This document shows, in pieces, positions 7,277 to 22,490 of a stretch of DNA of 22,490 nt (position 1 is the stretch's first letter; each line of letters starts with the position of its first letter). Source of the DNA: a virus; the IMG/VR virus record IMGVR_UViG_3300020172_000247, positions 1 through 22,490 of that record, one strand, 5' to 3'. The notes under the pieces are model-generated. The model searched no databases, was not told the origin of the DNA, and saw only the letters and a list, made by a program, of their open reading frames with translations. The translations under genes were made by a program, and so were the position numbers.

Positions 7277-8523
7277 TGCGTATAGTAGAACTAGTCGAAT
7301 CATCAAAGCGTACACCAGATTTGATGGATGCTTTTGCTGCGTTCTTTCCTCTAGCCATGCAAGAGTTAGAAATTGACCGATTGCCTGATATTAAATTAGA
7401 ACTACATTTAGAATTAGATGAACAGCCTTCATTTGGTAAGTTTGTTCAAAGTGAAAATAGAATGTATCTAGCAATAGAAGATCGACATCCAGTTGATATT
7501 CTTAGAACACTGGCACACGAACTAGTACATTACAAACAGGGTGTAGAACACGAATTAACTTCCAATAGTGGCGATACTGGTAGTCCTCAAGAAAACGAAG
7601 CACATGAAGTTGCTGGCATTATTATGCGACATTTTAATAAACAGCATCCAGAATTCTTCGATACTTCTGCCATTAATATCAGCGAAAGTTTTAAAAAGAA
7701 AGCAGCGGGTCTAGCATTAGGTGCATTGTCTTTAGGTGCTCAAGCTACTGCTCCCCAGATAGTTCAACAGATTGTTGAACCAGGCGATACTGTGTATTCC
7801 ATTGCAAGACAGAATAATGTTCCTCCTGCAGAGATTATGAAACTTAATAAAATGGGCAAGCAGACAAAACTTGAAATTGGTCAAAAGGTAAAAGTGCCTG
7901 ACTATTCGAAGCCAATTAAATTGCCCAGCACAGTAACTCCTACTGTTAAACAACCTCCTAATATTTCTCCAGCAGCACAGGCAGCACCTATGAAAGTATT
8001 GCCCAAAGTTGGCGATGAAGTTTCTTTGTTGAGTGACAATCCTGATGCAGAAGCTGCTTTACAAACTGCTGCCAAAGCCGCAGGACTTAAAGGTGCAGAA
8101 CTAGCACAGTTTATGGCACAGACTCGACACGAAAGTTGGGACTTTGGTAAAATGAAAGAAGTAGGCAACAAGAAAAGATTTGCCAAATATGAAACTCCAC
8201 GTAAAGCAAGACAGTTGGGCAACAAAGTAAAAGGCGACGGTGAAAGATTCAAAGGCCGCGGCTTTATACAATTAACTGGACGTGATAATTATACTCGTGC
8301 CAGTGAGCAAATTTTTGGTGATGACAGACTAGTTCGTAAACCCGAATTAGCCAGTGACCTTAATGTTGCTGCTAAGATTGCTATTTGGTATTGGAAGAAT
8401 CAAGTTAGACCTAATGTTAATAATTTTAACAATACAAAAGAAGTAACTAACGCAATTAATCCTGGTCTAAGCGGGCTACAAGATAGACATAATAAATTTA
8501 AAGAATATCTAGCAATATTATGA
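7276..8523 (+). CDS. Modular lysin: HExxH metallopeptidase-like domain, LysM, GH19-type lysozyme, with block leader
   Basis: Starting at the ATG that overlaps the previous stop (TAATG), the protein has 415 residues and begins MRIVELVE|SS. Residues 40-125 hold a zinc-peptidase-like motif, HELVH at 81-85 with a following NEAHE (107-111). ISE|S at 135-138 precedes a basic-then-hydrophobic stretch ending in AQATA (139-159) that looks like a signal peptide. Residues 166-208 are a LysM peptidoglycan-binding domain (PGDTVYSIARQNNV, IGQKVKVP). Residues about 258-400 are a GH19 chitinase/lysozyme-type domain with RHESW (E286) and GRGFIQLTGRDNY (328-340). The likely job is cell-wall degradation. The leader suggests it could be virion-borne and cut into two parts, but it may also be the late lysis enzyme. 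No holin is seen nearby. Confidence 0.85.
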   Translation: MRIVELVESSKRTPDLMDAFAAFFPLAMQELEIDRLPDIKLELHLELDEQPSFGKFVQSENRMYLAIEDRHPVDILRTLAHELVHYKQGVEHELTSNSGDTGSPQENEAHEVAGIIMRHFNKQHPEFFDTSAINISESFKKKAAGLALGALSLGAQATAPQIVQQIVEPGDTVYSIARQNNVPPAEIMKLNKMGKQTKLEIGQKVKVPDYSKPIKLPSTVTPTVKQPPNISPAAQAAPMKVLPKVGDEVSLLSDNPDAEAALQTAAKAAGLKGAELAQFMAQTRHESWDFGKMKEVGNKKRFAKYETPRKARQLGNKVKGDGERFKGRGFIQLTGRDNYTRASEQIFGDDRLVRKPELASDLNVAAKIAIWYWKNQVRPNVNNFNNTKEVTNAINPGLSGLQDRHNKFKEYLAIL

Positions 8524-9038
8524 GAGCAGATGAATTTATAAATGAAAACACCGCCGATGGCATCAACAAGATGTTTAACAATCTAGGTGATCCTGTGTAT
8601 GCTAATCTACAACGAGTAGCATTATTAGCCATGCAAGGAAGACAGCAAGAAGCAGCCGGACGCTTACAATCAGTAATCAAAAATGCTTCCCCTAATGTGC
8701 AAAAAAAAATCACAGATGCAGTAAACAATATTAAACCTGTTACAATAGATGGTAAAATAGCCGATTCTAGTACATTGGATAAAAGTAAACAACATCAGGA
8801 TTGGATCTTAAACACATTCATTCCGTGGGTAACGTCTTTATTAGATCAGCAAGGCATGGCAGAAAATTTTGCTGACGGTAAGAATCCTGGACGAAAGGGT
8901 CTAGCTAAACGTAGTGGAGTAAATACCAAAGCCAGTGTTAGTAGTCTGCGTAAGACTGCAAAAAATTCATCGGGTGAAAAGCAACGTATGGCACACTGGT
9001 TGGCTAATATGAAAGCAGGAAGGGCAAAAAAGAAATGA
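8520..9038 (+). CDS. Leader-bearing modular protein (MRADEFINE) with basic C-terminal module
   Basis: A 172-residue protein overlapping the lysin stop by four bases. Its start MRADEFINE|N is strikingly like T4 internal protein leaders (MKTYQEFI-x-E). A helical middle follows (ANLQRVALLAMQGRQQEAA). Then comes GMAE|N at about 113-116 and a basic C-terminal module, ADGKNPGRKGLAKRSGV to the Lys-rich end. The C-terminal module resembles a short domain I remember as recurring in marine phage proteins of unknown function. Nucleic-acid or head-interior binding would fit the charge, but this is inference. Confidence 0.75.
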   Translation: MRADEFINENTADGINKMFNNLGDPVYANLQRVALLAMQGRQQEAAGRLQSVIKNASPNVQKKITDAVNNIKPVTIDGKIADSSTLDKSKQHQDWILNTFIPWVTSLLDQQGMAENFADGKNPGRKGLAKRSGVNTKASVSSLRKTAKNSSGEKQRMAHWLANMKAGRAKKK

Positions 9039-11441: not shown

Positions 11442-14111
11442 ATGAGTTATGTTGATTCCGTCTGGGATCGCGACAAAGACACCATTCGAGTTGTCGAGCG
11501 AGACCCTACTAAAGGTAGACAGTTTAAAGACTTTCCTGCCAAATATGTTTTTTACTATCCAGACCCTAAAGGAAAATATCAATCCATTCACGGAGATCCT
11601 TTAACTAAAGTCAGTGTAAAAAGCCATAAAGAATTCCAAAAAGAACTACGCATACACAGTGGTAAGAAACTGTTTGAAAGCGATATCAATCCAGTATTCC
11701 GTTGTCTAGAAGAAAATTATCTAGGCAAGGATGCACCAAAATTAAACGTAGCGTTCTGGGATATTGAGGTAGACTTCGATCCAGAGCGTGGCTACGCAAG
11801 TCCTGATGATCCTTTTATGCCAATTACTGCTATTGCTGTACATCTACAATGGATGGACACATTAGTATGTCTTGCTATACCGCCCAAGACTATGACTATG
11901 GAGCAGGCGCAGGAAGCAGTTAAAGAATTTCCTAACACTATTCTGTTTGATTCAGAATATGACATGTTAGATACATTCTTAAATTTAATTCAAGATGCTG
12001 ATGTGTTAAGTGGTTGGAACAGTGAAGGGTTTGATATGCCGTATACTGTTAACCGTGTTATTAAAGTTTTAAGCAAAGAGGACACACGCAGATTCTGTTT
12101 GTTTAACCATTATCCTAAAAAGAGAGAATACGAAAAATATGGTAAGGACGCTGTTACTTATGATCTTATTGGTCGCGTACATCTTGACAGTCTCGAGCTA
12201 TACAGGAAATACACTTATGAAGAAAGACATAGTTATCGACTAGATGCTATTGCCGAATATGAACTAGGCGAAACTAAAACTGTCTATGAAGGCACACTAG
12301 ATCAACTTTATAATAATGACTTTAAAAAGTTTATTGAATATAACAGACAAGACTGTGCCCTGCTTGACAAACTAGATAAAAAACTTAAATTTATTGATCT
12401 AGCCAACACCGTTGCACATGAAAACACAGTATTGATTCAAACTACAATGGGTGCTGTAGCTGTTACTGAACAGGCAATTGTAAATGAAGCTCATCATAGA
12501 GGTATGATTGTTCCAGGTCGTCCTAAACGTGATGAAGAAGTTGATACACAGGCCGCAGGTGCTTATGTAGCATATCCTAAAAAAGGATTGCATGACTGGA
12601 TTGGAAGCATGGATATTAACAGTTTGTATCCAAGTGCAATTCGTGCATTAAACATGGGACCAGAAACTATTATAGGTCAATTGCGTCAAGATTACACCAA
12701 ATCAGAAATATCTAGCAAAATGAGCAAAGGTAGCTCGTTTGCGGCTGCATGGGAAGGTAAGTTTGGCAGCAACGAATATGAATTTGTAATGAGTAAGGAT
12801 CGGGCAACTGACATTACTATCGACTGGGAAGATGGTAGAGTAGATGTTCTCAGTGGTGCTCAAATTTATGAATTAATTTTTGAAAGCAATCAACCTTGGA
12901 TGTTGAGTGCCAACGGTACTATTTTTACCTACGAGCGTGAAGGTATTATTCCCGGACTGTTAAAACGTTGGTACGCTGAACGTAAGGAAATGCAGGCCAA
13001 GTTAAAGGAAGCTATTGTCGCAGGAGATAAAGTACAAGAAGAATACTGGGACAAACGTCAACTAGTTAAGAAGATTAACTTGAACAGTTTGTATGGTGCT
13101 ATTCTGAACGCAGGTTGCCGTTTCTTTGATAACCGCATTGGACAAAGCACTACACTGACTGGTCGGAGAATTGCTCGTCATATGGCTAGTAAAGTTAACG
13201 AAGTTATCACAGGAGAATATAATTACATTGGAAAAAGTATTATCTACGGTGACACTGACTCTGTTTACTTTTCAGCATACACTACGTTGAAAAACGACAT
13301 CAATAAAAAACTTATTCCGTGGGATAAAGACACAATTATTCAACTGTATGATACAATCTCAGATGAAGTTAACAGTACATTTTCCCAGTATATGCTAGAC
13401 GATTTTCATTGTCCAACTAGCAAGGGTAGTGTTATTAAAGCAGGCCGAGAAATTGTTGCAGTTAAAGGCTTGTTTATTACCAAGAAACGGTATGCTGTTC
13501 TTTACTTTGATAAAGAAGGCAAACGTAGTGATGTAGAAGGTAAACCAGGAAAGATCAAAGCCATGGGGCTAGATTTGAAACGTAGTGATACTCCAGAATT
13601 TATGCAAAAGTTTTTAGAAGAAGTATTAACCAAAGTACTCAATGGTGCTGAGGAAAAAGATATCTTAGAAATGATTGGTGAATTCCGAACTGAGTTTAAA
13701 GCAAGACCCGGTTGGGAAAAAGGCAGTCCCAAACGTGCTAACAACATTGCTGAGTATCAGGCTAAAGAAGTCAAGGCTGGTAAGACTAATATGCCAGGGC
13801 ATGTACGTGCTAGTATTAATTGGAATACCTTAAAGCGTATGAACGGTGACAAATACAGTCAACAAATTGTAGACGGTATGAAAGTTATTGTTTGTAAACT
13901 AAAAGATAATCCACTAGGATATACTTCAGTAGCGTATCCAGTAGATGAGCTACGTCTACCTAAGTGGTTTCAAGAACTTCCATTTGATCACGGTGAAATG
14001 GAAGCAACAATTATCAATAACAAACTTGATAACTTAATCGGTGTGTTGGAATGGGACTTGGCGTCAACAACACAAAATAACACCTTTGGTAGTTTGTTCA
14101 GCTTTGAATAA
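11442..14111 (+). CDS. gp43: Family B DNA polymerase, T4 gp43 type
   Basis: The replicative polymerase with 3'-5' proofreading, 889 residues, close to T4 gp43 in length. Exonuclease motifs are visible: DIEVD at 107-111 (D107, E109), NSEGFD at 193-198 and YNRQD at 300-304. Polymerase motif A is DINSLYPS (391-398), motif B KINLNSLYGA (544-553) and motif C YGDTDS (602-607). The C-terminal peptide NTFGSLFSFE (880-889) corresponds to the clamp-binding tail of gp43-type polymerases. The sliding clamp gene follows directly. The ATG is backed by TGGAG six bases upstream, and the leader may carry an operator. All key catalytic residues are present, so it should be active. Confidence 0.97.
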   Translation: MSYVDSVWDRDKDTIRVVERDPTKGRQFKDFPAKYVFYYPDPKGKYQSIHGDPLTKVSVKSHKEFQKELRIHSGKKLFESDINPVFRCLEENYLGKDAPKLNVAFWDIEVDFDPERGYASPDDPFMPITAIAVHLQWMDTLVCLAIPPKTMTMEQAQEAVKEFPNTILFDSEYDMLDTFLNLIQDADVLSGWNSEGFDMPYTVNRVIKVLSKEDTRRFCLFNHYPKKREYEKYGKDAVTYDLIGRVHLDSLELYRKYTYEERHSYRLDAIAEYELGETKTVYEGTLDQLYNNDFKKFIEYNRQDCALLDKLDKKLKFIDLANTVAHENTVLIQTTMGAVAVTEQAIVNEAHHRGMIVPGRPKRDEEVDTQAAGAYVAYPKKGLHDWIGSMDINSLYPSAIRALNMGPETIIGQLRQDYTKSEISSKMSKGSSFAAAWEGKFGSNEYEFVMSKDRATDITIDWEDGRVDVLSGAQIYELIFESNQPWMLSANGTIFTYEREGIIPGLLKRWYAERKEMQAKLKEAIVAGDKVQEEYWDKRQLVKKINLNSLYGAILNAGCRFFDNRIGQSTTLTGRRIARHMASKVNEVITGEYNYIGKSIIYGDTDSVYFSAYTTLKNDINKKLIPWDKDTIIQLYDTISDEVNSTFSQYMLDDFHCPTSKGSVIKAGREIVAVKGLFITKKRYAVLYFDKEGKRSDVEGKPGKIKAMGLDLKRSDTPEFMQKFLEEVLTKVLNGAEEKDILEMIGEFRTEFKARPGWEKGSPKRANNIAEYQAKEVKAGKTNMPGHVRASINWNTLKRMNGDKYSQQIVDGMKVIVCKLKDNPLGYTSVAYPVDELRLPKWFQELPFDHGEMEATIINNKLDNLIGVLEWDLASTTQNNTFGSLFSFE

Positions 14112-14166: not shown

Positions 14167-14901
14167 ATGCAAGATTTATTAAAAGATATCGTAGGTCACA
14201 CACATAACCTTGGCTTCCTAAATGTTGTGAAAATTACTGGCGAAGAATCTAAAACCAGTATTGACAGTATGGCAGATGACCGTACGGTTATTATGTATGC
14301 TGAGACAGCTAATCCATATCCAGATATGATTGGTGTTTTTGGTATGCCACAATTAAACAAACTACGTTATCACTTAGATTGCCCGGAATATAAAGAGGGT
14401 GCTAAGATTGAAGTTGTTAAAGCAGACCGTAATGGCGAAACAATGCCAATTGGTTTGCATTTTGAAAATGCAACCAAAGACTTTAAAAACGATTATCGTT
14501 TTATGAGCACTGAGATTATTAATGAAAAACTAAAAACTGTTAAGTTCCGCGGTGTTAAGTGGGATGTTGAAATTGAGCCTTCAGTACAGGCTATTCAACG
14601 TTTTCAATTCCAAGCGGCTGCTAACAATGAACACACAACATTCTTGGCAAAAACTGATGGCGACAAGTTAATTTTTACATTTGGTGATCAAAGCACACAC
14701 GGTGGTGAATTTGTATTTGCCATAGGCGTTACTGGCAAAATTACCAAGGCGTGGACATGGCCTGTTAGCAGTGTTTTAAGTATTCTTAAAATTGCCGATG
14801 CTAACAATGCTAAACTGAGCTTTAGTAATGAAGGTGCTATGCAGATTACCTTAGATAGCGGATTGGCTACTTACAAATATATTATTCCAGCCAACGCATG
14901 A
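14167..14901 (+). CDS. gp45: Sliding clamp, T4 gp45 type
   Basis: A 244-residue processivity clamp (T4 gp45 has 228). It would form a trimeric ring that tethers the polymerase and, in T4, also activates late transcription. Recognition rests on overall pattern: an N-terminal NPYPDMIGVFGMPQLNKL, a middle EIEPSVQAIQRFQFQAAAN, and a C-terminal WPVSSVLSILKIADA plus LATYKYIIPA end, the domain layout expected of gp45 proteins. Its position right after the polymerase, behind its own strong promoter and ribosome site, supports the call. It overlaps the next gene by four bases. No clamp loader genes are in the window. Confidence 0.92.
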   Translation: MQDLLKDIVGHTHNLGFLNVVKITGEESKTSIDSMADDRTVIMYAETANPYPDMIGVFGMPQLNKLRYHLDCPEYKEGAKIEVVKADRNGETMPIGLHFENATKDFKNDYRFMSTEIINEKLKTVKFRGVKWDVEIEPSVQAIQRFQFQAAANNEHTTFLAKTDGDKLIFTFGDQSTHGGEFVFAIGVTGKITKAWTWPVSSVLSILKIADANNAKLSFSNEGAMQITLDSGLATYKYIIPANA

Positions 14902-15266
14902 TAAAAGGTTTAATGGGTATTCGAGGCATTGCTGTAAATGGTGGCGACACCAGCGTACCCTACGTCAATCAAAATGTATCAAACCCTATGCAGGGTATGA
15001 TTAGAGTTTGGGGTACAGACATGCAGGTGTTTGACGGTAGTGGTTGGACTAACATTCAGTCCAGTTATACTACTGTCGGGCTCGATCCAGTTACCCAAGA
15101 AGCCATTGACTGGGTTAAACAAAAGATGCAGGATGAAAAAGAACTACATCAATTGTCCAAAGAAAACCCTGCTGTTCAAATAGCATTGGAGAATTTAAAA
15201 CGGGCCCGTGAACAATTAGATGTTACAATAATACTAAGCAAAGAATATGAAAAATCCACCAGTTAA
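14898..15266 (+). CDS. Conserved small phage protein of unknown function
   Basis: A 122-residue protein overlapping the clamp stop (ATGATAA). The N-terminal half is rich in Gly, Asn and beta-type residues (VRGIAVNGG-like start, MIRVWGTDMQVFDGSGW), and the C-terminal half is helical (QEAIDWVKQKMQDEKELH, then ALENLKRAREQLD). The layout, a small beta part with GMIR...VFDGS.W followed by a coiled-coil-like helix, recalls short proteins of cyanophages and marine T4-like phages, from memory. VFDGSGW is the sort of motif seen in phage structural proteins that mark virion surfaces. Function is unassigned. Its end overlaps the next gene by 20 bases. Confidence 0.7.
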   Translation: MIKGLMGIRGIAVNGGDTSVPYVNQNVSNPMQGMIRVWGTDMQVFDGSGWTNIQSSYTTVGLDPVTQEAIDWVKQKMQDEKELHQLSKENPAVQIALENLKRAREQLDVTIILSKEYEKSTS

Positions 15267-16866
15267 TTTAACACCATTACAAAAAGACTACGCTGTCTAC
15301 TTGCCAGCTATCAGTAGTTTTTACAGCACCTACGTTGCCAAACAACGTCTAGAAGAATTTGTTCCTAAAGATCGTATTCCTGCAGGGTTCGATCGTGGAA
15401 TTGAAGGTATGAACTTTCTTAATCCAGAACAAGGTTACTTTACTTATAAGTATGGTCTGTATTCAGCAGGTCATGCACAATTAGACTTGAATAAATCAAT
15501 GACTCAAGAGTCTATGATTCAACAACGTGACCGTGCTAACACAATGATCTTAGGTGACTCCGGTGGATATCAAATTGGTAAAGGCGTTCTTAAATTTGAT
15601 TGGTTAGATTTTGAAGGTAAGTCAGCAAACAAAACACGTCAAAGTATTTTAGAGTGGCTTGAACTTACTGCTGATTGGTCAATGATGCTTGACGTTCCTA
15701 CGTGGGCTTGTGACCATATACATAGTCCAAAGACAGGATTAAAAACATTTGAAGACTGCCTAGATAAGACACGTTTTAATAATGATTATTTCCTAATGAA
15801 TAGGATTGGTCAAACAAAATGGCTCAATGTTCTGCAAGGCGGAGACTGGGATACTGCTGAAAAGTGGTACCAAGGTGTTAAAGAATTTAGCGATCCTAAG
15901 GGCAAGTATAAAGGTCGTGAAGCAGAAGGTTGGGCCTTTGGTGGTGCTAATATGTGTAAAATGGATATTACTCTTAAACGTCTAATGACGCTAAGAGACG
16001 ACGATTTGCTAGAAAGCAAAAACTGGATCCATTTCTTGGGTACAGCTCAGTTGGATTGGTCATGCTATCTAACTTCAATTCAACGACAAATCAGGAAACA
16101 TATTAATGAAGAAATTACCATATCTTTTGACTGCGCCTCCCCGTTCATTGCAACAGCACACGGACTTGTCTATACCAACGCAGTCCACACACCAAAAAGG
16201 TGGAGTGTTATTATGGACAAAGCCCCAGACAACAAATCCTTGTCAGGAAGCGATATCCCATTCCCATTCGAATCAACAATCGGTCGCCGATTAACTATAG
16301 CAGATATTGCCTACTATAATTTAGGCATACGCAAGACTGATGCAGAATTAGGTAAAGTTAAATTTGATCATTTAAATCCAGAACACTATCACGAAGTTCC
16401 AAGACTTAATAAACTAGGTAAAATTCCAAACAAAACATCGTGGGATAGTTTTGCCTATGCATTAATGATGGGGCATAACGTAGAATGTCATATTGTTGCT
16501 GTACAACGTGCTCAACAGTTAATGGATATTGAATGTGCTAGACATAAGCCAGACTGGCGTATGTGGGGCTTAGAAGGTAAGAAAGAAATTGAATTTAGTG
16601 ATTGGGTTCCACGTAAGATTCTTTACTTTGACCGATTTGTTAAAGAACTTTTTGAAACTAAAACTAAAGCAGAAGCATTTGCAATGATTGATCAAGCTAT
16701 GCCATTCCTACGTAGTTTAGAAGGTGCTCGACTACAAGGCGGGCCTGCTCAAAATACTTTTGGTAATTTGTTTGAAGTAGAGCAAGTTGTTAAACAAGAA
16801 GAAATCGATCTTGCTAATCCAGACGATGAAGAACTACGTGCATTAGAAGAAGGACTTGTAGAATGA
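15247..16866 (+). CDS. dpdA: DpdA-like guanine transglycosylase with C-terminal clamp-binding-like peptide
   Basis: A 539-residue member of the tRNA-guanine transglycosylase superfamily. Phage DpdA enzymes of this superfamily swap guanine in DNA for a 7-deazaguanine. Family residues can be placed: D104 in DSGGYQ (104-109), D149 in MLDVP, Q197 in LQGGD, FGGANM (231-236, the counterpart of GG-A-x-G), FLGTAQLDW (263-271) and the presumed nucleophile D295 in SFDCASP. The Cys3-His zinc site of tRNA-type enzymes is not seen, which favours a DNA-type enzyme. QNTFGNLFE (502-510) copies the polymerase tail NTFGSLFSFE, suggesting binding to the adjacent clamp. FolE, QueE and a QueD-like gene in the window support 7-deazaguanine synthesis. 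The exact base is unknown. Confidence 0.82.
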   Translation: MKNPPVNLTPLQKDYAVYLPAISSFYSTYVAKQRLEEFVPKDRIPAGFDRGIEGMNFLNPEQGYFTYKYGLYSAGHAQLDLNKSMTQESMIQQRDRANTMILGDSGGYQIGKGVLKFDWLDFEGKSANKTRQSILEWLELTADWSMMLDVPTWACDHIHSPKTGLKTFEDCLDKTRFNNDYFLMNRIGQTKWLNVLQGGDWDTAEKWYQGVKEFSDPKGKYKGREAEGWAFGGANMCKMDITLKRLMTLRDDDLLESKNWIHFLGTAQLDWSCYLTSIQRQIRKHINEEITISFDCASPFIATAHGLVYTNAVHTPKRWSVIMDKAPDNKSLSGSDIPFPFESTIGRRLTIADIAYYNLGIRKTDAELGKVKFDHLNPEHYHEVPRLNKLGKIPNKTSWDSFAYALMMGHNVECHIVAVQRAQQLMDIECARHKPDWRMWGLEGKKEIEFSDWVPRKILYFDRFVKELFETKTKAEAFAMIDQAMPFLRSLEGARLQGGPAQNTFGNLFEVEQVVKQEEIDLANPDDEELRALEEGLVE

Positions 16867-17989: not shown

Positions 17990-18238
17990 ATGGCATTGCC
18001 ATCTTTTATTCAAAAAACTCTTGTAATGAAACCCGAAGTTGAGAAAATCTTTGATGATCTTGACGCATGGTTAGATCATTGCCGCTTCAATATGTTGCCC
18101 TTTAATCCTGCAGACCTATATAAGTCTCAGGAATATCGCAACTTTCAGCGATATCAAAATGGTGGCGAACGCCGACCATACTTAGGCAAAAAGCCTCGCT
18201 TTGAGAACAAGAGCAATGGCGAACGTTTTTCTCGTTGA
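17990..18238 (+). CDS. Hypothetical protein, 82 residues
   Basis: A small protein behind a good ribosome site (AAGGAAAG at 17979-17986). It starts MALPSFIQKTLVMKPEVEKI, continues FDDLDAWLDHCRFNMLPFNP and has a basic, Arg-rich tail (ERRPYLGKKPRF). I recall similar short proteins in marine phages without function. The basic tail could contact nucleic acid. The next gene starts inside its last 23 bases. Confidence 0.65.
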   Translation: MALPSFIQKTLVMKPEVEKIFDDLDAWLDHCRFNMLPFNPADLYKSQEYRNFQRYQNGGERRPYLGKKPRFENKSNGERFSR

Positions 18239-19313
18239 TTTAGAATCAGTTGAAACCAGGTACACGGGTCAGTGGAAGACTCATGTACCTGCTCTCTTAC
18301 GAAAGGCAGGACACAATGTCAACATTATATCAGGTCCTACGGACATTCCTAGTGCTACCACTCCTGGAGCATTTCTCAACTTTGGCGGCACTAATATATA
18401 CAAAGCTAGTCAAGTGGAGCAGATGGGCCGTTTATTTTGTAGCGGATCCGTTCATCCTGGCGACCACTTTATTTTTACTGATGCTTGGCATCCAGGCATC
18501 ATAAACTTAAAATACATGAGCGAGTTACTGGGTATTCCAGTAACTACACACGGCTTATGGCATGCTGGTAGTTATGATCCCCAAGACTTTTTAGGACGCT
18601 TAGTTGGTAGCAAACCTTGGGTTAGACATGCTGAGAAAAGTTTTTATCATGCGTTCGATCATAACTATTTTGCCACAGAGTTTCATGTACATCTATTCAT
18701 GAAAAAATTACTCAACGACGGGTATACTATCGAAAATCCATGGTGGCATGAAGATTGGCATGAACGTTACGACAGCGGCAAAATTGTCAAGACTGGTTGG
18801 CCCATGGAGTATATGGACAATGCTCTTGTAGAATATAAGAACATGCCCAAACGTGATCTTATCTTATTTCCGCATCGCATTGCTCCAGAGAAACAAGTTG
18901 AAATCTTTCGCGACTTAAAAGAACAACTGCCACAGTATGAATTCGTTGTTTGCCAGGATCAACAGCTAACAAAGAATGAGTATCATAATTTATTAGGCGA
19001 AGCTAAAATTGTGTTTAGTGCCAGCCTACAGGAAACACTGGGTATTGGCTGCTATGAGGGAGCATTACTTGATGCTGTTCCTATGGTACCAGATCGACTT
19101 TCATATAAAGAAATGTATCACGAAGGTTTTAAGTATCCTAGTGCATGGACAGAAAACTGGGATAGCTATCTTAGACATAGACAAGAACTGTGCCATCACA
19201 TTATAGTTACTATGACCCATTATGAAAAACGTATTCCACAATTACGCAAACAAACGGAAGACTTGTCTAAATATTTCTTTAGTGCAGGTCGTCTGCTGGA
19301 GAATATTAAATGA
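18216..19313 (+). CDS. GT-B fold glycosyltransferase (GT4-like)
   Basis: A 365-residue protein from the ATG at 18216, preceded by AAGAG. The C-terminal half has the layout of a nucleotide-sugar binding domain: LILFPHRIAPEKQVEIF (215-231), KIVFSASLQETLGIGCYEGA (264-283), and PMVPDRLSYKEMY (289-301). E273 and E281 are at the positions of the E-x(7)-E motif of GT4-type enzymes. The N-terminal half is less typical. It would transfer a sugar from a nucleotide donor; the acceptor could be a modified DNA base, a virion protein or a host glycan. The overlapping neighbour downstream encodes a UDP-sugar dehydrogenase-type protein, so the two may act on the same sugar. A weak upstream TTG start at 18201 is less likely. 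Confidence 0.8.
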   Translation: MANVFLVDLESVETRYTGQWKTHVPALLRKAGHNVNIISGPTDIPSATTPGAFLNFGGTNIYKASQVEQMGRLFCSGSVHPGDHFIFTDAWHPGIINLKYMSELLGIPVTTHGLWHAGSYDPQDFLGRLVGSKPWVRHAEKSFYHAFDHNYFATEFHVHLFMKKLLNDGYTIENPWWHEDWHERYDSGKIVKTGWPMEYMDNALVEYKNMPKRDLILFPHRIAPEKQVEIFRDLKEQLPQYEFVVCQDQQLTKNEYHNLLGEAKIVFSASLQETLGIGCYEGALLDAVPMVPDRLSYKEMYHEGFKYPSAWTENWDSYLRHRQELCHHIIVTMTHYEKRIPQLRKQTEDLSKYFFSAGRLLENIK

Positions 19314-20113
19314 GTGAAATGTTTCAATTACCAAAGATTGGTATCGTAGGTCTAGGATTTGTTGGTCAGGCTATTAGAGAAAGTATCAGTGGCTACAATG
19401 TAGTCACTGTTGACAGTGACCCTAGCAAAGGCAGTGATAAATTTGAAGACTTATTTGCCTGCGAAGGTATTTTTATCTGTGTTCCTAGTCCACAGTTAGA
19501 AGATGGCACTTGCGATACTTCAATTTTAGAAAGTGTCTTAGAAAAACTTCAAGGATATACAGGTGTTATTATTAGTAAGTGTACAGCACCGCCAGATGCT
19601 TATAAACGATTAAATGATCTTTATCCAAACCTTGTTCATGTTCCAGAATTTTTAACTGCGGCTAGAGCCAAGTTAGACTACCTAGGCGGTAAATTTGCCT
19701 TTATTGGCGGAAATGTTCGTGCATATCAGCATGAAGCAGAACGAATTATTAGAATAACACAGCATAGTCTTAACAAAGTTATCTACTGTACTATCGGAGA
19801 GGCAGCATTAGCCAAGTATACGATTAACAGCTTCTTAGCCACTAAGGTAACTTTTATGAATGAAATTTATATGCTGGCGCAGAACCTAGGTCTTGATTAT
19901 GAAAAAGTTGCAGAAATGGTTGTCTGTGATGACCGTATTGGCAAAAGTCATATGCGGGTTCCTGGCCCTGAAGGTTTATTTGGATTTGGCGGGATGTGCT
20001 TTCCTAAAGATACATCCGCATTGATTAAATTTGCAGAACAGGTTGGTGTCCATGTTAATGTCGTCGATGCCGCAGTAAAGAAAAATACTCTGCTTCGCTT
20101 GACAAAAACCTAA
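19310..20113 (+). CDS. Short UDP-glucose/GDP-mannose dehydrogenase family protein
   Basis: A 267-residue NAD-dependent sugar-nucleotide dehydrogenase-type protein. The Rossmann motif is GLGFVG (14-19). ALAKYTINSFLATKVTFMNE (166-185) is the family's central segment with K169 and N173, and GGMCFPKDT (227-235) holds the catalytic Cys (C230). Family enzymes usually have about 390-450 residues with a third domain that binds the UDP part; here the protein stops soon after the catalytic loop. It may be a reduced phage form with altered substrate or one that needs a partner. It overlaps the glycosyltransferase by four bases. A start at 19319 (MFQ) is possible. The last codons overlap the -35 region of the folE promoter. 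Confidence 0.85.
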   Translation: MSEMFQLPKIGIVGLGFVGQAIRESISGYNVVTVDSDPSKGSDKFEDLFACEGIFICVPSPQLEDGTCDTSILESVLEKLQGYTGVIISKCTAPPDAYKRLNDLYPNLVHVPEFLTAARAKLDYLGGKFAFIGGNVRAYQHEAERIIRITQHSLNKVIYCTIGEAALAKYTINSFLATKVTFMNEIYMLAQNLGLDYEKVAEMVVCDDRIGKSHMRVPGPEGLFGFGGMCFPKDTSALIKFAEQVGVHVNVVDAAVKKNTLLRLTKT

Positions 20114-20171: not shown

Positions 20172-20951
20172 ATGGTATATCAAAATGCATATGAAAGTCA
20201 CGACGAGGAACCTAGTGACAAAAAAGAATCAATTTTAGACATTGACGAAAAAGGTTACGAAGTTGGCTATCTAGGTACGCAAATACGTCAACGAATGAAA
20301 CGTGATAAAAAACGTTTTTGGGCAGGTGACAATATCAGTGAATATCTTAAGCCCGGCGATAAAGAAATTCTAATTAGTGATGCTACAGAAGCATTTGAAC
20401 AAGTATTAGACACATTACTAATTGATCAAGAAACTGATCCTAATTCAAAAGGAACAGCAAGACGATTAGCCAAAATGTATTTTAATGAAATAATGGCAGG
20501 AAGATATGACCCAGCACCAGATGCAACAGCATTCCCAAATGATTCAGCAGACAGATACGAGGGTATGTTGGTTGTGCGTAGCGAACTACGTAGTATGTGC
20601 AGTCATCATCATCAACCTGTTAGTGGAGTGGCATACATTGGAATTATTGCGGCAGAAAAACTTATCGGCTTGTCCAAGTATACACGTATTGCCCAATGGT
20701 GTGCTCGTCGAGGAACCTTACAGGAAGAATTGTGTATTGACATAACCAATGAGATTATGGCTGCAACTGGTAGCAAGGATGTTGGTGTTTATATTCAAGC
20801 AGTACACGGATGTTGTGAGAATCGTGGCATTATGGCACACTCTAGTCTAACACAAACAACTGTACTTAGAGGTGCGTTCAAAGATGATCCCAACACTAAA
20901 AAAGAATTTATGGACAATGTTAAATTGCAACAAGAATTTGCACCTCGATGA
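20172..20951 (+). CDS. folE: GTP cyclohydrolase I
   Basis: A 259-residue enzyme that opens GTP to 7,8-dihydroneopterin triphosphate, the first step toward folates and 7-deazaguanines. SMCSHHHQPVSG (141-152) holds the zinc ligands C143 and H146, and AVHGCCENRG (210-219) holds the third ligand C214 and the R218 of the family motif H-x-C-M-x-x-R-G. TRIAQWCARRGTLQEEL (171-187) is also typical. The N-terminal 60 residues are an extension beyond the bacterial core. It has its own consensus promoter, so it may be made strongly and early. With QueD-like, QueE and DpdA in the window, its product most likely feeds DNA base modification. Confidence 0.95.
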   Translation: MVYQNAYESHDEEPSDKKESILDIDEKGYEVGYLGTQIRQRMKRDKKRFWAGDNISEYLKPGDKEILISDATEAFEQVLDTLLIDQETDPNSKGTARRLAKMYFNEIMAGRYDPAPDATAFPNDSADRYEGMLVVRSELRSMCSHHHQPVSGVAYIGIIAAEKLIGLSKYTRIAQWCARRGTLQEELCIDITNEIMAATGSKDVGVYIQAVHGCCENRGIMAHSSLTQTTVLRGAFKDDPNTKKEFMDNVKLQQEFAPR

Positions 20952-21810: not shown

Positions 21811-22030
21811 AACAGTTTATACAGAAGTGGAAGTCGATGTTGATCTTGCAGATTTTGACACTGATGATTTGCTAGAAGAACTAGAAGAACGTGGAGCATT
21901 ACCTGTCGAAGGGCAATATGATTCTAAAGAAATTTTGGAAGCAATCTATCATAAACGTAGACTTGGTCGCACAGATTACGAAAAAGAATTAGATCAATTA
22001 ATCTACGCAGGATTAGGAAAAATAGTATGA
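21800..22030 (+). CDS. Small acidic phage protein, 76 residues
   Basis: The ATG at 21800 gives MAYKTVYTEVEVDVDLADFD and then DDLLEELEERG; an upstream GTG (21791) is less likely. The C-terminus has EAIYHKRRLGRTDYEKELDQ and LIYAGLGKIV. It is strongly acidic at the start and helical at the end. I recall small proteins of this kind in T4-like marine phages, often with the same YHKRR...ELDQLIY pattern, without known function. It overlaps mazG by 11 bases and queE by four. Confidence 0.7.
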   Translation: MAYKTVYTEVEVDVDLADFDTDDLLEELEERGALPVEGQYDSKEILEAIYHKRRLGRTDYEKELDQLIYAGLGKIV

Positions 22031-22490
22031 GCAAAATTAAAATAGCAGAATTATTTTACAGCATACAAGGTGAAGGAAGATATATGGGAGTTCCTTCCGT
22101 TTTCTTACGTACCTTTGGTTGTAACTTTAAATGTCAAGGTTTCGGCATGCCTAGAGGTGAGCTTAGTGTTGAGGCAGACGAACTGGGCAACCTTGCTCAT
22201 ATGTTTAACAAATATGAAGAACTTCCGCTGGTTAGTACAGGTTGTGATAGTTACGCTAGTTGGCATCCAGACTTTAAAGATCTAAGTCCAATGCTTACTT
22301 CGGATGCTATAGCTGATCGAATTATGGAAATTCTTCCACACGGCAAATGGCTAGACGAACATCTAGTTATTACAGGTGGTGAGCCGTTGCTAGGTTGGCA
22401 ACGTGCTTATCCAGATTTGTTGAATCATCCTAAGATGGCAGGATTAAAAGAAATTACATTTGAAACAAATGGTACTCAAAAGCTAACAGA
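22027..22490 (+). CDS. queE: QueE-like 7-carboxy-7-deazaguanine synthase (3' end outside the window)
   Basis: The first 154 codons of a radical SAM enzyme, starting at the ATG overlapping the previous stop. FYSIQGEG (10-17) and VFLRTFGCNFKC (25-36) are typical of QueE, and VITGGEPLLGWQ (about 113-124) is the radical SAM glycine-rich GGEP motif. The enzyme makes 7-carboxy-7-deazaguanine from carboxytetrahydropterin. The iron-sulfur cysteines are unusual: C32 and C36 fit C-x3-C, but position 39 is Phe, not Cys. The best candidate for the third Cys is C73 in STGCDSYASW, about 37 residues later. It completes FolE, QueD-like and DpdA as a base-modification set. QueC is not in the window. Confidence 0.9.
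   Translation, partial: MSKIKIAELFYSIQGEGRYMGVPSVFLRTFGCNFKCQGFGMPRGELSVEADELGNLAHMFNKYEELPLVSTGCDSYASWHPDFKDLSPMLTSDAIADRIMEILPHGKWLDEHLVITGGEPLLGWQRAYPDLLNHPKMAGLKEITFETNGTQKLT

Follow-up and report, generated by a model that had tools for sequence, protein, structure and literature searches.

The DpdA-like DNA transglycosylase encoded in a 22,490-nucleotide stretch of viral DNA (IMG/VR record IMGVR_UViG_3300020172_000247, analysed whole and hereafter called the window) carries near its C-terminus a peptide that resembles the end of the polymerase of the same genome. This tail is probably (roughly three chances in four) a sliding-clamp-binding short linear motif that would hold DpdA at clamps on new DNA. 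Comparison across phage genomes supports both the motif and the way it matches the tail of the accompanying polymerase.

The enzyme (539 aa; positions 15247-16866, plus strand) is assigned to the TGT superfamily from its predicted fold and a profile match, given that the family libraries are silent: Pfam, PHROGs, NCBIfam and PADLOC assigned it no family, and a PDB sequence search with alignment A1 gave no match. An AlphaFold-type model of medium confidence (pLDDT 71) predicts the TGT-type (beta/alpha)8 fold, and its best 17 PDB fold matches are all TGTs (E 1e-6 to 8e-4). In the TGT/DpdA superfamily, the aspartate of DSGG(F/Y/L)Q serves as general base and that of I-S-(F/Y)-D as nucleophile. 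The window DpdA contains the catalytic motifs DSGGYQ and ISFD; D104-G107 and D295, which include their aspartates, are invariant among distant relatives in alignment A1, and the motifs also occur in alignment A2. The CxCxxC zinc motif of the tRNA TGT site (CxCxxC...H) is absent from the 539-aa sequence, and the protein is thus not a canonical tRNA TGT. Homology to the nt-1 DpdA2 family was detected by hhalign profile comparison over 192 columns (probability 94.5, E 8e-8). Since nt-1 DpdA2 and the window enzyme listed different phages when used as tblastn queries, the window enzyme is a remote relative or sister subfamily of nt-1 DpdA2. It is provisionally named a DpdA2-like DNA transglycosylase, with activity on DNA (exchange of guanine for a 7-deazaguanine) presumed from family membership.

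In the window clade, as in phage Paride and the 9g-type phages, dpdA is grouped with polymerase and clamp genes. The family B DNA polymerase of the window is of T4/RB69 gp43 type (11442-14111, plus strand; phrog_262 E 3e-199; PDB RB69 polymerase E 3e-63). Its reading frame ends in ...STTQNNTFGSLFSFE and contains the putative clamp-binding tail NTFGSLFSFE (14079-14108, plus strand), which is conserved in relatives and whose role is taken from T4/RB69 (PMC2988020). The candidate sliding clamp (14167-14901, plus strand; 244 aa) found no match in Pfam or NCBIfam; its AlphaFold model (pLDDT 91) points to a PCNA fold, only PCNA-type clamps appearing among the PDB matches listed (best E 2e-11). The sequence-only reading had placed a clamp gene between polymerase and dpdA, and the positions bear this out, with a product of predicted PCNA fold. 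The 7-deazaguanine pathway is represented in the window by two genes only, encoding GTP cyclohydrolase I (FolE), which catalyses the first step (20172-20951, plus strand; Pfam PF01227 E 6e-39), and a QueE-like 7-carboxy-7-deazaguanine synthase that runs off the window end (22027-22488, plus strand; phrog_2076 E 3e-31 and QueE models). At positions 18201-20113, a gene for a GT4-like glycosyltransferase (370 aa) comes immediately before one that resembles UDP-glucose dehydrogenase genes. A homologue of the glycosyltransferase gene adjoins dpdA in each of Paride, ACP17 and X1, and in Phosso one is located near the clamp gene. These arrangements suggest that the DNA contains a glycosylated 7-deazaguanine.

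The motif QNTFGNLFE spans DpdA residues 502-510 (16750-16776, plus strand), and the residues and coordinates that the sequence-only reading gave for its match to the polymerase-terminal NTFGSLFSFE are exact. Unlike tails of the T4 gp43 type, it stands 29 residues before the C-terminus. Residues 496-517, motif included, are modelled with pLDDT below 50 and are probably disordered. Among the 25 non-redundant sequences of the window clade, F505 is retained in 23, L508 in 22, F509 in 24 and a hydrophobic residue at 511 in all 25, while one member (L027) has lost the LF pair. L508-F509 is under purifying selection (pN/pS 0.08) while the adjoining downstream linker drifts (0.69). Beyond this linker lies a conserved acidic segment (residues 519-533, EIDLANPDDEELRAL; 16801-16845, plus strand), with a pN/pS of 0.21 against 0.69 for the linker between motif and segment; a helix is predicted in this region, at residues 527-538.

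In RB69, the polymerase peptide docks on a hydrophobic patch of gp45, and in T4 the tails of gp43, gp55 and gp33 are interchangeable, with an internal gp55 motif still functional (PMC2988020). In T4, such tails are borne by a polymerase, a sigma factor and a co-activator, whereas in the present case a base-exchange enzyme has one. In DpdA, a flexible linker would carry the hydrophobic peptide F-x-x-L-F-x-(F/V/W), which may occupy the pocket of the PCNA-type clamp that is also used by the polymerase tail. A trimeric clamp would offer three such sites, allowing polymerase and DpdA to be held together or in turn. Docked DpdA would be kept on freshly replicated duplex DNA, where exchange of guanine for 7-deazaguanine could follow replication, coupling modification to the fork.

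Clamp binding might also operate apart from the fork, a possible but clearly less probable arrangement in which DpdA would act on mature DNA, drawn there by clamps that stay behind at nicks, sites of repair or late promoters. T4 late transcription provides a precedent, proceeding from DNA-loaded gp45 clamps engaged through the same type of tail (PMC2988020), and TGT-type exchange is independent of replication. Among phage DNA-modifying enzymes, the T4 alpha-glucosyltransferase is known to bind the sliding clamp physically (Sommer 2004, as cited in PMC13216743), and the pull-down was repeated in 2026; its share of glucosylation in vivo is, however, set mostly by expression and activity rather than by gp45 binding (PMC13216743). 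This enzyme differs from the proposed DpdA in that it glucosylates hmC rather than exchanging a base, and it ends in QFDIITK without a C-terminal LF tail. Against an uncoupled reaction, the grouping of dpdA with polymerase and clamp genes hints at joint early expression, without proving it.

The motif was also sought in other phage DpdAs, as the sequence-only reading had proposed, and was found in nearly all close relatives of the window enzyme and in distant lineages; DpdA2 of the KVP40/nt-1 type is without it. The absence from DpdA relatives that would have counted against the sequence-only reading was thus for the most part not observed. The nt-1-type DpdA2, encoded beside preQ0 pathway genes (Hutinet 2019, PMC6884629), represents the TGT-like family to which the window DpdA belongs by profile. 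Most relatives of this type, though not nt-1 and KVP40 themselves, have a T4-type LF tail, which in T4-type phages lies at the extreme C-terminus and resembles that of T4 gp43 (ASLDFLFG). The endings SLDDLFG and SLEELFG of DpdA2 share with gp43 and gp55 (SLDFLYEAND) a hydrophobic and acidic character, an LF/FF core and a flexible linker. Among 39 non-redundant proteins drawn from 80 IMG/VR loci, 29 have [LFM]F no more than two residues from the end, compared with 36 of 981 background ORFs (3.7%) from four genomes; the commonest such ending is the gp43-like SLEELF. The tail is not required for base exchange as such, given that nt-1 phage DNA contains dPreQ0 (PMC6884629) even though its DpdA2 is tail-less; the DpdA2 proteins of KVP40 and nt-1 end in AEFPAFKEQE and AEYPDFKS, and their polymerases retain TLESFFG.

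Polymerase and DpdA2 tails match within individual phages (polymerase first: SLESLFG/SLEELFG in X1, SLEDLFGW/SLDDLFG in Marzo, SLDDLFE/TLDELFE in ACP17 and TLDDFFS/SLDSFFD in BUCT-ZZ01), and they covary, sharing unusual variants (TVDDLFG/TVDSLFD, TLAGLFS/TLGDMFV, SLEDFFG/TLENFFE). In a permutation of partners over a pair list collected by hand from the loci available, own pairs were closer than swapped ones (p 1e-5 for 26 pairs; 2e-5 for 18 tailed T4-type pairs), values that overstate independence because related phages share both tails and the pairs are not phylogenetically independent. This covariation and the adjacent clamp gene argue against binding to a different component of the replisome (the clamp loader, for example) or a role in DpdA self-assembly instead of docking at the polymerase site of the clamp, as does the terminal position of the tail in DpdA2 and 9g-type proteins, which resembles that of known clamp tails. 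Such an alternative is unlikely, though TGT enzymes are dimers, tail similarity is the sole measure, and tails of similar appearance are found on T4-type gp26-like baseplate proteins. These proteins (about 250 aa, with a terminal GLxxFF) were considered as further clamp partners and rejected, those tested being gp26-like; they were identified in three of four T4-type genomes (ACP17 88633-89394, Marzo 43228-43989, BUCT-ZZ01 7844-8554) and seen in the fourth by the tail only (X1 84546-85328). They were kept as a control, and they imply that a clamp-type motif alone is not proof.

Comparable pairs occur in distant relatives. In Vibrio phage 2.275.O, whose DpdA is about 30% identical to that of the window, DpdA ends in NNNDLFGW and the polymerase in NNTDLFDW, and none of the other ORFs among the 496 has a [STNDKG]LFx[FWV] ending. 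The Paride DpdA (about 44% identical) ends in SNSFNSLFDVD and its polymerase in HFDSLFGW. DpdAs of the Phosso lineage have only a terminal GLF or GIFS, and the Phosso dpdA is located away from the clamp gene; the DpdA tail of pf16 is degenerate. Single-query IMG/VR scans with the Vibrio DpdA and with the Paride DpdA found nothing, and one with the Phosso DpdA found two loci. The Paride polymerase gene (L081:3623-8849) is divided into two parts that flank an annotated homing endonuclease gene. At G040:C1:54838-58674 (L327, L328), about 1.15 kb separates the two pieces of a polymerase match inside an open frame reported as 1288 aa, which looks like an intein.

The DpdA of phage 9g (DpdA1) resembles the window case in DNA base exchange, a terminal LF tail (RLQDLFDE) and an adjacent clamp gene, but differs in belonging to another DpdA family and in having a clamp annotated as beta-subunit type. 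LF endings recur in the 9g-type DpdAs of PSTCR7 (RVQELF), PaMx25 (RIQELF), Seurat (RVMELF), VspDsh_1 (MIQGLF), PSASB_03 (EQMELF), RHph_N17 (REQRLF), Dp-1 (RQRRLF) and GH32 (DQPGLF); unlike the others compared, the Typha DpdA has none. In 9g, PaMx25 and PSASB_03, dpdA is directly followed by a gene whose annotation is beta-type clamp or processivity factor. The consensus of the bacterial beta-clamp-binding pentapeptide is QLxLF, and the (Q)xLF endings of 9g-type enzymes resemble it, in keeping with the annotation of the 9g clamp. A broader and finely poised reading makes clamp tethering the general route of phage DpdAs to DNA, with independent gains for PCNA/gp45-type clamps (DpdA2 and jumbo-phage DpdA) and for beta-type clamps (9g-type DpdA), and with 7-deazaguanine insertion steered towards phage DNA that has just been replicated.

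The similarity between QNTFGNLFE and the polymerase tail exceeds that of shuffles of the same tail (P = 2e-4). When every ORF of a genome was scored by its last 45 residues against the tail of its own polymerase, DpdA took first rank in six of nine phage genomes (ORFs in brackets): G002 (375) and G005 (334), both long relatives, Vibrio 2.275.O (495), ACP17 (210), Marzo (231) and X1 (301). It ranked third of 235 in BUCT-ZZ01 and ninth of 436 in Paride; in Phosso no similarity of DpdA to its own polymerase tail was detected (rank 559 of 668). A ranking on the last 12 residues only fails for the window clade, where the motif is internal, and 45 residues were therefore used for all. In G005, [STNDKG]LFx[FWV] occurs within the last 60 residues only in polymerase and DpdA. 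A chance or low-complexity likeness in a drifting C-terminal tail is most improbable and was rejected, for although the motif is short, other ORFs per genome match [STNDKG]LFx[FWV], and Phosso and KVP40 are without it, the rank tests, codon constraint and recurrence in several divergent lineages indicate from sequence that the match between DpdA and polymerase tails is not due to chance.

The sequence-only reading had identified the DpdA peptide with the clamp-binding tail of the polymerase. The resemblance stands by comparison (close relatives, distant lineages, pairing with the own polymerase, predicted disorder and the clamp gene), and binding to the clamp and coupling to the fork remain the probable interpretation of it. 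The same reading knew of no such coupling in a described DpdA. A full-text literature search, with most subscription papers outside its reach, likewise found no link between DpdA and a sliding clamp, and a review of jumbo phages names the enzyme in passages that make no connection to a clamp; the motif has, however, proved less special to this phage than that reading supposed. Clamp tails on DpdAs are apparently widely distributed and undescribed, while clamp-bound DNA modification itself is known from the T4 alpha-glucosyltransferase.

Matching tails on related enzymes of very different phages suggest a possible physical link between DNA modification and replication. The DpdA fold leaves unexplained the choice of DNA over tRNA and of phage over host DNA; if clamp tethering holds, substrate choice would be made by attachment to the replication clamp, which would help to explain how a tRNA-modifying fold became a DNA-modifying enzyme. 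It would also link 7-deazaguanine-based anti-restriction to the replisome and add base exchange to the tool-belt of the clamp. The tail could further serve as a sequence handle for finding other clamp-tethered DNA modifiers in phage genomes.

Similar endings were observed on a few other proteins. In the Synechococcus phage BUCT-ZZ01, a protein encoded directly upstream of dpdA2 (L182:153-1496; 447 aa) ends in SAGSLEDFFND, like the tail of its own polymerase; considered as a DpdA paralogue, it turned out to be GT4-like, and is possibly a second clamp-tethered modification enzyme. An annotated glycosyltransferase of Phosso (L193:1553-2425, equivalent to Phosso 223052-223924; weak TAGT similarity, E 0.01-0.03) is encoded beside a gp55-like late sigma gene and ends in LSDLFDFG, resembling the polymerase tail FNDLFTF. 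Relatives of both proteins are few. Phosso also has a 167-aa ORF (153391-153894) with the ending LNDLFDFG.
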